Assembly: GCA_900473805.1 (NCBI GenBank)
Contig: UCMS01000006.1
Span: 481,736-545,735 of the forward strand
From: Hyphomicrobiales bacterium
GTDB taxonomy: Bacteria; Pseudomonadota; Alphaproteobacteria; Rhizobiales; Rhizobiaceae
Length of the DNA: 64,000 nucleotides
Direction of reading: 5' to 3'
The notes below the pieces were generated by a model. That model saw only the letters and a program-made list of their open reading frames with translations. It made no database searches and had not been told where the DNA came from. This document shows positions 17,365 to 22,235 of this stretch, piece by piece (the first letter of the stretch is position 1; every line of letters begins with the position of its first letter). Both the position numbers and the translations under genes were made by a program.

Positions 17365-17640
17365 ATGACCGAAATGATCCGCCCACGAGTTAAATATGTC
17401 ATCGGCCCCGATGGCAGCCCCCTGACGATTGCCGATCTTCCGCCGGCCAACACACGCCGCTGGGTGATCCGCCGCAAGGCAGAGGTTGTCGCGGCTGTGC
17501 GTGGCGGTCTGCTGAGCCTGGAAGAAGCCTGTGACCGTTATACATTGACGGTTGAGGAGTTCCTGTCCTGGCAGTCCTCGATCAACGATCACGGTTTGCC
17601 GGGCCTGCGCACCACCCGTATCCAGCAGTATCGCCATTAA
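17365..17640 (+). CDS. sciP: SciP, small CtrA inhibitory protein (DUF1153)
   Basis: A 91-residue helix-turn-helix protein of the DUF1153 family. In Caulobacter SciP binds CtrA and blocks its recruitment of RNA polymerase, so CtrA target genes are held off in G1. The family signature is clear: RPRVKYVIGPDGSPLTIADLPP, TRRWVIRRKAEVVAAVRGGLLSLEEAC and YTLTVEEFLSWQ. It lies about 1.8 kb from ctrA, a linkage often kept in Rhizobiales. Its stop is followed by two hairpins. Confidence 0.92.
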   Translation: MTEMIRPRVKYVIGPDGSPLTIADLPPANTRRWVIRRKAEVVAAVRGGLLSLEEACDRYTLTVEEFLSWQSSINDHGLPGLRTTRIQQYRH

Positions 17641-18674: not shown

Positions 18675-19025
18675 TCAGGCCCGAACACGCATCTGGCCAT
18701 CACGCTCTTCAAGCGCTGAGGCCTTCTGGTATTCCGCTTCTGCCTCTTCCAACGCCAATTCTGCCGCTTCCTGCTGGACCTTCAGTTCCCGGATCGAGAC
18801 CTGGAGATTGTCCGCGCGCTGGCGAGCCGCCTTGGCGAAGGTGGGATAGGCGAAATGATTGGGATCCGTGATGCCGGATTTTTTCTCCTCGATGCCGATC
18901 TGAGCTTCGAGCTCTTTCGCCATCCGTTCGAACTCCGCCATCATCGACTGCAACTGCTGCAATTGCCGACGCTTTTCGGTGACCTGAAAACCTTTCAGGC
19001 GAACCAGGCTCTCACGCGACTTCAT
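18675..19025 (-). CDS. FliJ-like coiled-coil protein
   Basis: A 116-residue, highly charged helical protein (KSRESLVRLKGFQVTEKRRQL at the start, long heptad-like helices throughout). Proteins of this kind beside ctrA in Rhizobiales are usually annotated as flagellar export chaperone FliJ; length and coiled-coil shape fit, but there is no other flagellar gene here. ATG at 19023-19025 has GGGAG upstream; the open frame extends further to 19175 without similarity. It is divergent from ctrA, with which it shares a long regulatory region. Confidence 0.75.
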   Translation of the reverse strand: MKSRESLVRLKGFQVTEKRRQLQQLQSMMAEFERMAKELEAQIGIEEKKSGITDPNHFAYPTFAKAARQRADNLQVSIRELKVQQEAAELALEEAEAEYQKASALEERDGQMRVRA

Positions 19026-19457
19026 ACGCAATACTCCCGTGATGCGAGACCCCCCGCCACACTTGCTACTCAACACGCCGACCGCGAACCGTCCAAAAAA
19101 AGTCTGCGGCGTTAACAAAAAGCTACCCTTGGTAACCTTTCGTTTACGGGCATCGTTAATGATAAGGCGGATCACTTAAGGGTCAGTAAATGCCAGCGCC
19201 GGAAAACGGCACATGACAATGATGAGTCAAATGAATCGGTTACGGGTAAAACCTGAGGCGCAGATTCAAGTGTGGCGATGACCGAAACACATGCAAAATC
19301 ATGAGGCTGAAATCTTTGCTTAATAAATTCGATACACCTTGCCAGAGGGAATCAGAATTTGTTAACCATTTGGTGGCAGCCTGCAAATCAGGCAACGACT
19401 GGATCCGTATCGCGTAGGGGGCTTCTCGACCTTTCGGCGGCGGTAAAGGGGATAAAT
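19026..19457. promoter_or_regulatory. ctrA promoter region with CtrA half-site and four GANTC methylation sites
   Basis: This 432-bp gap separates the FliJ-like gene from ctrA. It contains TTAACCAT at 19362-19369, the CtrA half-site word, 88 bp before the ctrA start. It also holds four GANTC sites (19224-19228, 19233-19237, 19263-19267, 19349-19353), the target of the cell-cycle methyltransferase CcrM; about one would be expected by chance in a gap this size. In Caulobacter and Sinorhizobium ctrA promoters respond to CcrM methylation and CtrA itself. Exact -10/-35 elements were not assigned. Confidence 0.65.
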
Positions 19458-20159
19458 ATGCGGGTTCTACTCATTGAAGACGACAGCGCGACCGCTCAGA
19501 GCATCGAACTGATGCTCAAATCGGAAAGCTTCAACGTCTATACAACCGACCTCGGCGAAGAAGGTGTCGATCTCGGTAAGCTCTACGACTACGATATCAT
19601 TCTGCTCGACCTGAACCTGCCCGACATGTCCGGCTACGAGGTGCTTCGCACGCTCCGCCTGTCGAAGGTAAAGACGCCGATCCTCATTCTCTCCGGTATG
19701 GCCGGCATCGAGGACAAGGTTCGCGGCCTCGGTTTCGGCGCCGACGACTACATGACGAAGCCCTTCCACAAGGATGAGCTCGTTGCCCGCATCCATGCGA
19801 TTGTCCGTCGCTCCAAGGGTCACGCCCAGTCGATCATCATCACCGGCGAACTGATCGTCAACCTGGACGCCAAGACCGTAGAAGTCGGCGGTACACGCGT
19901 TCACCTGACGGGCAAGGAATACCAGATGCTGGAGCTCCTCTCGCTCCGTAAGGGCACGACGCTCACCAAGGAAATGTTCCTGAACCACCTCTATGGCGGC
20001 ATGGACGAACCGGAACTGAAGATCATCGACGTCTTCATCTGCAAGCTCCGCAAGAAGCTCGCCAACGCTGCCGGTGGCGCCAACTACATCGAAACCGTCT
20101 GGGGCCGTGGCTATGTGCTGCGTGAGCCGGATGGCGCGGAATACATGGAAACGGCCTGA
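19458..20159 (+). CDS. ctrA: CtrA, master cell-cycle response regulator
   Basis: OmpR-family response regulator (233 residues) that controls division, DNA methylation, motility and replication timing in Alphaproteobacteria. The receiver (1-117) has the acidic pair E8/D9, phospho-acceptor D51 in [13 protein letters not shown] and K in DYMTKPF. The C-terminal winged helix (about 130-226) contains [33 protein letters not shown], practically invariant in CtrA. It is phosphorylated through CckA-ChpT; chpT is 0.7 kb away. The C-terminus ends META; Caulobacter CtrA uses a terminal AA for ClpXP proteolysis. ATG at 19458 is the usual family start. Confidence 0.97.
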
Positions 20160-20183
20160 TCCGTTTCCCGCATATGTTGCCGC

Positions 20184-20214
20184 AAAAGGCCCGCATCCAG
20201 GATGCGGGCCTTTT
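20184..20214 (+). terminator. ctrA terminator
   Basis: Near-perfect hairpin: AAAAGGCCCGCATC (20184-20197) pairs with GATGCGGGCCTTTT (20201-20214) around a 3-base loop, ending in TTTT. It lies 24 bp after the ctrA stop and could also end the convergent receiver gene. Confidence 0.9.
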
Positions 20215-20338
20215 GCATTGCACGGCAGGTTCCGTCCGCACGATCAGGGCAACCCGCTCCCGGGGAACGGACAAGAAAAAGGCGGCTACCGAAACGGTGC
20301 CGCCTGTCACTTCATCTGGATCGTAGCGGTGACCGATG

Positions 20339-20701
20339 TCAGGCCGCCATGGCCTTGTCTCCGAACGTCGCCGTCAGAATCTGCCGGTCGAACGGCTTCA
20401 GCAGGAAGTCGTTTGCGCCGGCACGCTTGCCAGCCATCATCACCTTCAGCTCTGCCTCGATCACGCAGTAGTAGATCCGGACGTCCTTGCCGTTCGGAAG
20501 CGCGCGCACATTGGTGATGAGATCAAGGGCGTCGTCCATGGCCGCGTCGACGATCAGAAAGTCCGGCAGTTCGCGCTCGCAAAGCGCCAGAGCCTCACGG
20601 CCAGTCGCCGCGTCGGACAGCTTGAAGCCCAGTTCGGACAGGATCTTGCGACCCACCTTGCGAACCACGTCCGAGCCGTCTGCAATCATGAGGCGCTTCA
20701 T
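20339..20701 (-). CDS. Single-domain response regulator receiver, degenerate
   Basis: A 120-residue CheY-like protein with no output domain. The likely phospho-acceptor is D52 (FLIVDAAMDDALDLI) and the conserved Lys is in FLLKPFD near 102. It departs from the consensus: the acidic pair at the N-terminus is reduced (LMIADGSD), the usual DxxMPxMDG loop is DAAMDDALD, and the strand-4 Thr/Ser is replaced (IYYCVIE). ATG at 20701 follows GAGAGGA; a TTG two codons earlier is an alternative. It lies between ctrA and chpT, downstream of chpT on the same strand with a 115-bp gap, so it may exchange phosphate with ChpT or act as a non-phosphorylated partner. This is not CpdR or DivK by sequence. Confidence 0.8.
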   Translation of the reverse strand: MKRLMIADGSDVVRKVGRKILSELGFKLSDAATGREALALCERELPDFLIVDAAMDDALDLITNVRALPNGKDVRIYYCVIEAELKVMMAGKRAGANDFLLKPFDRQILTATFGDKAMAA

Positions 20702-20816: not shown

Positions 20817-21458
20817 TTAGATGACCTCGGCCGTAAAGGCGATCTCGCCTTCGCTGGGCAGGCATTTCAACTCCATGCCGGCCTCGTCAGCCAGAAGCAC
20901 CGTATAGTAAGGCTGGATGGTGTGCGCATCGATCGCCTCTTCCAGATGACCTGAGAGGATTTCCTGGTATTTCGGCGGCACGCGCAGCATGCGGCCCTTG
21001 GCGACGATCTTGAACTTCGCCTCGTTCTCCGGATCCTCGAGCGTGACGTCGAGCGAACCACCGCGCGGAATAGCACCGTAGGCGACGAGGAAGAGATTGA
21101 GCAGCAGCTTGACGCGGTTCTTGGCGATGATGGCGCGCGGACCGTTCCAGGTGACTTCCGTCTTCTTCTCGGCAGCTGCGAAGTCCCGGGCGGCCTTTTC
21201 AGCCTCGCCGGTATCGATTGACGCGCCGACCGAACCGGAGGCGCCAAACGCGAGCCGGGCGAACTTCAGCCGGACGGAGGCATTGAGAGCGCTGGTGCGG
21301 ATGAGATCCATCGCGTCGGCATCCGCACCGCCTTCGTCGAGCAACTCCAGCCCGTTGTTGATCGCACCGACCGGCGAGATCACGTCGTGGCAGACACGGC
21401 TGCACAAGAGGGCCGCGAGATCGGGACCCGCGAGCGTGAGATTGGGGTTTTTCGCCAT
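20817..21458 (-). CDS. chpT: ChpT histidine phosphotransferase
   Basis: Phosphotransferase (213 residues) that relays phosphate from the CckA kinase to CtrA and CpdR. The His-containing helix is clear: LAALLCSRVCHDVISPVGAINNGLELLDEG, with H24 as the phosphorylated residue. The C-terminal half has a degenerate HATPase-like fold (NRVKLLLNLFLVAYGAIPRGGSL) without ATP-binding motifs, as in known ChpT dimers. ATG at 21456-21458 has GGAGA upstream; a longer open frame to 21554 is unlikely. It is grouped with ctrA and sciP, so the substrate, its phosphodonor arm and its inhibitor are encoded within 4 kb. Confidence 0.93.
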   Translation of the reverse strand: MAKNPNLTLAGPDLAALLCSRVCHDVISPVGAINNGLELLDEGGADADAMDLIRTSALNASVRLKFARLAFGASGSVGASIDTGEAEKAARDFAAAEKKTEVTWNGPRAIIAKNRVKLLLNLFLVAYGAIPRGGSLDVTLEDPENEAKFKIVAKGRMLRVPPKYQEILSGHLEEAIDAHTIQPYYTVLLADEAGMELKCLPSEGEIAFTAEVI

Positions 21459-21647
21459 GGTCGTCTCCAGAGAAGTGTCGTGGGTCTCGCAGCGGTCGAA
21501 CATGAACACGGCCTGCGGCGTCACCGGATTCCTTGTCGGCCATAATGACACCATATTTGGTAAACCGATTATTAAGATGATGCTCGCTAGGTTTAATTAC
21601 CCCCATCGGAGAAGCCGAATCCGTCGACTTCACATCAAGGAGGCTCC

Positions 21648-22235
21648 ATGCGTCACCTGACAATCCGCTCTTTCCCGGCCATGCGCCTCTTCCTACTGGC
21701 CGTATTTGCGGTGTCTGGACTGGCAGCGGCTCCGAGACCGGTCCAGGCCGCCGGCGAATACACCATCCAGGAAGTGGTCGATGCCGGGCATGGTTTCTTC
21801 GGCGAGACCAGTGGTGCCTTGGCCAAGGTCATCGAGCAGGCCTTCGAGCAATACGGATTGCCGAACGGCTACATCTTGGGTCAGGAAGGATCCGGCGCCC
21901 TGATTGCCGGCCTCACCTACGGCGAAGGCACGCTTTACACCAAGAATGTCGGCCAGCATGACGTCTTCTGGCAGGGCCCGTCGCTCGGCATCGATTATGG
22001 CGGCAATGGCACCCGCGCCATGATGCTGGTCTACGATCTTCCCGATGTAGACACCCTTTATGCCCGTTACGGCGGCGTCAGCGGTTCCGCCTACATCGTG
22101 GCCGGCGTCGGCATGACCGTGCTGAAAAGCCGCGATGTGGTGCTGGTGCCGATCCGCACCGGCGTCGGTGCCCGCCTCGGCGTCAATGTCGGCTATCTCA
22201 AGCTGACCCGCACGCCCACATGGAATCCCTTCTGA
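21648..22235 (+). CDS. Exported DUF1134 protein
   Basis: A 195-residue protein with an N-terminal signal peptide (hydrophobic MRLFLLAVFAVSGLAAA, likely cleavage after VQA near residue 34). The mature part is the glycine-rich DUF1134 domain (GSGALIAGLTYGEG, GGNGTRAMMLVYDLPD, VGARLGVNVGYLKLTR), resembling YSC84/SYLF-type lipid-binding folds. Function is unknown. The start has a strong AAGGAGG site. It diverges from chpT, an arrangement seen in related rhizobia. Confidence 0.85.
   Translation: MRHLTIRSFPAMRLFLLAVFAVSGLAAAPRPVQAAGEYTIQEVVDAGHGFFGETSGALAKVIEQAFEQYGLPNGYILGQEGSGALIAGLTYGEGTLYTKNVGQHDVFWQGPSLGIDYGGNGTRAMMLVYDLPDVDTLYARYGGVSGSAYIVAGVGMTVLKSRDVVLVPIRTGVGARLGVNVGYLKLTRTPTWNPF

Follow-up and report, generated by a model that had tools for sequence, protein, structure and literature searches.

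An orphan CheY-like receiver between ctrA and chpT in Rhizobiaceae: descent from a chemotaxis operon and a possible link to flagellar motility

We have analyzed a stretch of 64,000 nucleotides of DNA from a member of the Rhizobiaceae (contig UCMS01000006.1, positions 481,736 to 545,735), termed here the window, in which a small receiver gene lies between ctrA and chpT. The gene is located on the reverse strand at 20339..20701, with its ATG at 20701 and its stop at 20339, and encodes an orphan CheY or pseudo-receiver of 120 amino acids. It is preceded on that strand, at a distance of 115 bp, by the histidine phosphotransferase gene chpT (20817..21458; NF046018, 297.6 bits; PF10090). From the other side, ctrA (19458..20159, forward strand; NF045991, 423.5 bits) is convergent with the receiver gene. 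Divergent from chpT is eipA, encoding envelope integrity protein A (21648..22235, forward strand; PF06577, 241.2 bits); many relatives likewise have eipA next to chpT, whether or not che genes are present. Between chpT and eipA there is a CtrA-like site of the form TAAA-N7-TTAA (21561..21575, forward strand) that matches seven of the eight half-site bases. A fliJ-like ORF is positioned 5′ of ctrA (18675..19175, reverse strand, start codon uncertain); the corresponding neighbor in S. meliloti is labelled FliJ, and the part scanned (18675-19022) gave no Pfam match. A sciP-like DUF1153 gene lies at 17365..17640 on the forward strand. Its S. meliloti homolog at the same place is labelled DUF1153, and the gene was matched in part of the chpT loci compared.

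There is no cheA between chpT and ctrA in the window; two CheA-type domains are encoded elsewhere in the genome, on contigs C58 and C44. The preliminary description placed the receiver inside the CckA-ChpT-CtrA neighborhood. This is loose wording, although the gene does sit between ctrA and chpT. A consensus scan for promoters and terminators found none of the latter and a single weak promoter-like site, and it did not report a long G+C-rich inverted repeat that can be seen by eye at 20170-20320, between the convergent ctrA and orphan cheY genes. Genes resembling ctrA, 73-85% identical in DNA to the ctrA of the window, are also present on Methylobacterium, Methylorubrum, Sphingobium and other plasmids.

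The product of the orphan cheY is a single receiver domain (PF00072, 54.3 bits against a cut-off of 30.2). It falls below every cut-off among the best 25 of 64 NCBIfam models, the top score being 42.9 bits against 330. CpdR, likewise a single receiver and phosphorylated by ChpT in Caulobacter, was rejected as an identity, with 25.6 bits against a cut-off of 180 for the CpdR model (NF046022).

The phospho-switch of a receiver comprises the Mg2+-binding acids, a Thr switch and a Lys. In the window protein this set is incomplete: D8, D52 and K102 are present, with Gly at position 9 and Val at position 80, and the segment from D52 to I62 contains 11 residues instead of 13. The protein also carries a basic triad, K92, R93 and R106. 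A retained candidate phospho-acceptor and Lys, a reduced acidic pair, an altered loop after the acceptor (two residues short) and a missing strand-4 Thr/Ser had all been remarked on at the outset, and each is borne out; position 80 is Thr or Ser in all 116 cheA-linked homologs. The earlier suggestion of a pseudo-receiver is likewise supported. The short loop occurs in 41 of 86 Rhizobiaceae sequences and in none of the 143 others compared.

Is the gene conserved at this position? In a set of 81 Rhizobiaceae genomes, one per genus, the orphan cheY was matched at E ≤ 1e-12 in 62, and three more were gained by reading beside chpT, giving 65 with the gene. The copy lies 3′ of chpT, on the same strand and no more than 1.6 kb away, in 60 of these, so that a conserved linkage to chpT, on which the preliminary description had staked its proposal, and to ctrA is supported. 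Of the other five genomes, four (G001, G004, G034 and G065) have chpT on one contig and the orphan cheY, still adjoining ctrA, on another, and one (G053) has the two genes some 4.8 kb apart. Genome G037 (C2, C14) has chpT and the orphan cheY each twice, with identical scores. Close relatives with a name belong to Rhizobium, Agrobacterium, Allorhizobium, Gellertiella and Peteryoungia.

The S. meliloti copy is located between ctrA and chpT and corresponds to SMc00653, which is described as the convergent neighbor of ctrA (PMC2780559) and named a receiver domain protein (PMC12542648); these and the other papers cited are quoted from the excerpts available. We found no function for SMc00653 in the open-access literature, and the available excerpts of PMC7200025, PMC8116508, PMC2877005, PMC4433202 and PMC3577659 make no mention of the orphan cheY. 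Both ctrA and chpT are present on CP090106.1 (locus L061), an S. meliloti record of 3.7 Mb that bears the title plasmid pSymB and may therefore be a mislabelled chromosome.

The orphan cheY is under purifying selection, with dN/dS of about 0.11. The median pairwise value is 0.106 (22 sequences, 206 pairs, median dS = 0.88), compared with 0.037 for chpT, 0.012 for ctrA and 0.125 for eipA, after 25 saturated receiver pairs and 16 saturated chpT pairs had been dropped. In a larger set of 277 genomes the gene was found in 226 and not found in 51, with no internal stop among the matches listed. A functionless, decaying remnant kept by chance after the loss of an operon might be expected to be missing from some genomes and to have relaxed switch residues, as is seen here. 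However, the dN/dS at this divergence, the breadth of occurrence, the intact reading frames among those matches and the appearance of newly near-invariant residues (below) make such a remnant extremely unlikely.

The relatives of the gene outside the family suggest where it came from. In 190 genomes of the class (80 of them without a chpT match), many matches of the family profile lie 3 to 4 kb 3′ of chpT on the same strand. At one locus (L179:1721-9137) the order by Pfam is HPTransfase, CheA, CheW, receiver, CheB and CheR, followed by ctrA in convergent orientation, the CheA having Hpt, H-kinase_dim, HATPase, CheW and C-terminal receiver domains. This order recurs in class and order loci, many among L180-L345. 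A total of 345 loci provided 233 distinct receivers; receivers are counted as distinct sequences, so that the 81 chpT-linked Rhizobiaceae receivers discussed below are not the set of 81 genomes. From outside the Rhizobiaceae there are 147 receivers, 116 of them beside cheA (or cheW), 17 in a chpT-cheY and 10 in a chpT-cheY-cheR arrangement, three with neither chpT nor cheA near and one at a contig end. Eighty-two cheA-bearing loci were read over 11 kb or more; chpT, cheA, cheW, cheB and cheR are all present in 57 of them, and 41 of these 57 also have the convergent ctrA. The loci were picked by similarity to the family profile, and receivers beside cheA that are too divergent would escape these counts. 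The chpT-cheY-cheR intermediates are L193-L196, L198, L203, L234, L253, L255 and L256, where cheA and cheW were not called beside cheY. One of them, L198, also has cheB.

The shared gene order indicates that the window gene is a cheY that has lost its partners. It occupies the same slot, 3′ of chpT and facing ctrA, and belongs to the same receiver family as the CheY of the chpT-linked cheAWYBR operon, with helix 1 and the KPF motif kept. It differs in that cheA, cheW, cheB and cheR are missing from the window locus and switch residues have been lost, and in that the subclade of the window has the two-residue loop deletion and the new K/R92, R93 and R106. From the comparison of gene order and sequence, we regard descent from a chpT-che operon, together with loss of the phospho-switch, as highly probable. 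We found no description of a chpT-cheAWYBR-ctrA arrangement in the open-access literature. Chemotaxis and CtrA-relay genes adjoin across much of the Alphaproteobacteria, so that a chemosensory operon is tied to the locus of the CtrA relay.

How far has the switch decayed, and where? The five switch residues (D8, D9, D52, Thr/Ser80 and K102) are intact in all 116 receivers beside cheA (or cheW), which also keep the loop Pro and Gly without exception. They are intact in seven of the 10 chpT-cheY-cheR receivers and in 11 of the 98 in a chpT-cheY arrangement; 81 of these 98 come from a single family, the Rhizobiaceae, where only three are intact, against eight of the other 17. The remaining nine receivers keep the five residues at contig ends (4/5), with neither chpT nor cheA near (3/3) and with chpT farther away (1/1). 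Since so many orphans outside the Rhizobiaceae (8/17 and 7/10) are intact, loss of cheA alone does not break the switch. Rather, it appears to permit decay without forcing it at once.

When mapped on a tree of 179 ChpT sequences, the degenerate-orphan label requires 10 changes, at least five of them forced by well-supported branches, and the presence of cheA requires 13, at least three of them forced. When cheA was compared with the intact switch over independent pairs, there were only three pairs on supported branches, of which a mean of 0.4 agree and none oppose; the test is underpowered and the result is not significant.

Among the 81 Rhizobiaceae receivers, positions 9, 54, 56, 58, 80, 81 and 112 vary, and these are fixed or nearly so in the cheA-linked proteins. 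The acceptor D52 is kept in 72 and the acceptor Asp is missing in nine, and D8, D9, D52 and K102 are jointly present in 31, so some members may be phosphorylated. In one Rhizobiaceae subclade (L078, L079, L080, L081, L083, L085 and L090) the acceptor Asp is replaced by Ala or Ser and the basic triad is kept. The arrangements can be placed in a series, from the full che operon through chpT-cheY-cheR and chpT-cheY to chpT alone, in which the receiver outlives its kinase.

While the switch has been relaxed, other positions have become fixed. The combination of K/R92, R93 and R106 is present in 80 of the 81 Rhizobiaceae receivers (the single exception being L020), in none of the 116 cheA-linked proteins and in one of the 17 other orphans. 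By our rule R3, V28, M89, R93 and R106 are classed as gained in the Rhizobiaceae, and K92 and L109 turn near-invariant.

The structure was modeled as a plain receiver with the (βα)5 fold of CheY, with mean pLDDT = 83.4 and pTM = 0.78; it is the only one above 80 of five models (pLDDT 83, 70, 67, 60 and 56) built on 22 similar sequences. The top structural match is H. pylori CheY D53A (Z = 11.8, 118 residues aligned, rmsd 3.0), with which a designed protein ties. The matches also include the CtrA receiver from 4qpj, its complex with ChpT (Z = 10.8); differences in Z of this size are too small to separate families. In the model, residues 92-93 end α4 and residue 106 starts α5. The α4-β5-α5 face is the surface by which CheY contacts FliM (PMC5677366). 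The decay of a switch beside a newly fixed surface means that a receiver role without phosphate could be tested through three named residues.

This location also raises the question of whether the basic patch binds a cyclic dinucleotide, the bound form acting on the motor or the relay. ShkA REC1 is a pseudo-receiver that has lost phosphotransfer and binds c-di-GMP on its β5-α5 surface (PMC7010744), although it is a domain inside a hybrid kinase and the window protein is free. The Cle proteins of Caulobacter (CleA-E) are CheY-like and thought to have lost the CheA link; they do not need the phospho-switch, and an Arg in α4 is required (PMC5677366). The new Lys/Arg set of the orphan CheY falls on the same type of face. 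However, c-di-GMP is bound by a C-terminal Arg-rich extension in the Cle proteins, a tail that the window family lacks, and the Cle ARR motif [YF]xGP[DE][RK]R is present in none of the 233 family proteins, that of the window included. Moreover, basic residues would suit many partners. Docking of a second messenger is thus quite improbable.

We therefore looked at the company that the gene keeps across genomes. In 26 of the 65 gene-bearing Rhizobiaceae genomes there is no match to CheA (PF02895) at 1e-6, so CheA cannot be the general partner. FliM (PF02154) was tried as a marker of the flagellum and rejected. It matched 11 of the 81 genomes, and the 70 without a match at 1e-6 include that of the window and flagellin-bearing ones. 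Since the FliM model is too weak in the Rhizobiaceae, flagellin was used; the genome of the window has eight flagellin matches.

The orphan cheY and flagellin tend to occur together. In the 81 genomes, flagellin is present in 62 and absent in three of those with the gene, and present in five and absent in 11 of those without (p = 1.1e-7), counting as gene-negative G020, in the genome of which there is a match at 3.5e-36. The corresponding numbers are 212, 14, 19 and 32 for the 277 genomes, which represent 109 genera, and 201, 11, 15 and 26 for the 253 that are at least 90% complete and have chpT, 24 genomes falling outside this filter. By genus majority over 105 genera they are 83, 4, 6 and 12 (odds ratio 41.5, p = 1.3e-8). 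Six genomes with a best match weaker than 1e-25 were scored as lacking the gene, their matches being likely CheY paralogs; a second CheY in the genome of the window scored 1.4e-18 with the family profile (A1). Within the 81 genomes the gene is also associated with CheA (p = 0.0007), as is flagellin (p = 1.3e-5).

By contrast chpT was found in 269 of the 277 genomes, so the orphan cheY does not simply follow the relay, and it is absent from 26 of the 37 flagellin-less genomes that have chpT. Among the 253 genomes, the gene occurs without flagellin in 11 (seven genera), some of them fragmented drafts, and flagellin without the gene in 15. The gene is kept in flagellin-less members of g11, g35, g37, g40 and g346 and in single genomes of g78 and g335; flagellated members without it belong to g7, g17, g18, g19, g34, g64, g73, g330, g339 and g341. 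Nine genera are mixed for flagellin, and the gene changes along with it only in g66 and g80. A test on the tree gave five independent supported pairs, of which a mean of 3.3 agree and none oppose (p = 0.25, underpowered). Genome reduction could drive the loss of both. We read the co-occurrence as suggestive of a motility gene that is lost late, which is not proof.

The preliminary description had offered a phosphate sink or a dedicated ChpT ligand, phosphate passing from ChpT~P to D52, or the protein occupying ChpT. The frequent linkage to chpT and the retention of D52 and K102 in most members would be in keeping with this, as would the fact that ChpT has CtrA and CpdR as acceptors already (PMC9981736). 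CtrA contacts ChpT through D9, A11, S15, L18 and M19, of which A11, replaced by Ser in one partner, is required for the helices to pack (PMC9981736). MAFFT aligns CtrA to the window receiver with a gap inside helix 1. We prefer the ungapped register, since it runs uninterrupted from helix 1 to the acceptor (D51 in CtrA, D52 in the window protein), and in this register the five residues correspond to S10, V12, V16, K19 and I20. The counterpart of A11 is then V12, at which none of the 81 Rhizobiaceae receivers has Ala or Ser; in the gapped register it is D11, where 29 of the 81 do. Neither register gives the window protein the small residue. Furthermore, the commonest residues at the five ungapped positions (Ser, Val, Val, Arg and Ile) are the same in the cheA-linked CheYs, so helix 1 looks inherited rather than adapted to ChpT. 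V16, K19 and I20 do resemble V585, R588 and L589, contacts of the CckA receiver quoted in the same source, and DHp-type partners are therefore possible.

Neither the sink nor the ligand fares well on the remaining evidence. Descent from the che operon accounts for the link to chpT, and in the four genomes with the two genes on different contigs the receiver stays beside ctrA. Position 9 and Thr80 are relaxed, nine of the 81 receivers have no acceptor Asp, and the gene is missing from most flagellin-less genomes that keep chpT. We consider both to be very unlikely.

A different possibility is that the protein resembles Osp of Rhodobacter (Cereibacter) sphaeroides, binding the CckA transmitter unphosphorylated and lowering CtrA phosphorylation, with flagellar genes as the visible output. 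Osp consists of a single receiver of 120 residues in which the acidic pair is missing; it is a direct inhibitor of CckA, remains functional as D51N and is activated by CtrA (PMC9430884). FixT, cited in the same paper, is also a single receiver that inhibits a kinase unphosphorylated, its partner being FixL; both are compared here by description. Since Osp is a damaged receiver that inhibits CckA, the tuning of CtrA activity proposed in the preliminary description has a precedent, and such a role can be envisaged for the window protein, which has the same length, a damaged acidic pair and CtrA-linked biology: its gene adjoins ctrA and chpT, with the CtrA-like site upstream of chpT. Helix 1 is conserved without CheA, and its resemblance to the CckA receiver has been noted above. 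However, Osp has lost both acids, the first included, and the β5 Lys, whereas the window protein keeps D8 and K102. The osp gene, which has a TetR gene and not chpT as its neighbor, is presumably transcribed on its own, and in the excerpts available its authors report it in some Rhodobacterales and find it in no alphaproteobacterial genus outside that order. In addition, flagellin-less genomes keep chpT while the orphan cheY tends to go, and the newly near-invariant residues are mostly on α4 and α5, not helix 1. Overall, we think an Osp-like inhibitor rather unlikely.

On balance we favor an orphan CheY that works independently of phosphorylation and most likely serves flagellar motility. By the comparison above, it derives from the CheY encoded in an ancient alphaproteobacterial operon, chpT-cheA-cheW-cheY-cheB-cheR, facing ctrA. 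The Rhizobiaceae locus lost cheA, cheW, cheB and cheR, leaving cheY alone between chpT and ctrA. Without an adjacent CheA the switch decayed at the second acid, the loop proline and glycine and Thr80, and the subclade of the window lost two loop residues. The fold, helix 1, D8 and K102 were retained, and K/R92 and R93 at the end of α4 and R106 at the start of α5 became near-invariant. The result may be a constitutive CheY-like adaptor for which phosphorylation is not needed, the α4-β5-α5 face binding its partner through the new basic patch. Both the Cle proteins (PMC5677366) and Osp (PMC9430884) are precedents for phosphorylation-independent action. As the occurrence of the gene follows that of flagellin, and many genomes retain it with no CheA match, the partner would most likely be in flagellar motility, either in the motor itself or among the flagellar functions under CtrA. 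More tentatively, we suggest that a CheY stranded from its kinase was rebuilt in the Rhizobiaceae, its switch dismantled and a basic α4/α5 patch fixed, such that it connects the cell-cycle locus (and in Sinorhizobium also cAMP/cGMP) to the flagellum. This would account for a gene that is conserved next to ctrA, yet uncharacterized, in Rhizobium, Sinorhizobium, Agrobacterium and their relatives.

The activity of such an adaptor would be set by protein level rather than by phosphorylation, given that the gene follows chpT, upstream of which there is a CtrA-like site, and that the S. meliloti copy is served by a separate Clr-cAMP/cGMP promoter. A near-identical CtrA-like site is found upstream of S. 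meliloti chpT, where a CtrA motif has been reported (PMC3616915). A Clr site has been characterized in the SMc00653 promoter, and Clr together with cyclic nucleotide activates this promoter in an E. coli test (PMC10127613). We find the S. meliloti Clr core at L061:5577-5590, one of four matches in 10.4 kb where 1.9 are expected. The strict core occurs in six of 88 chpT-gene gaps (some genomes being counted twice), S. meliloti included, and there is none in the gap upstream of the window copy. Clr lowers swimming of S. meliloti (PMC5498481, where the excerpts available do not name SMc00653); this fits a role for SMc00653 without showing it to be the cause. Lastly, SMc00653 stands at -2.57 log2 in a phaR comparison in TY medium (PMC12542648).
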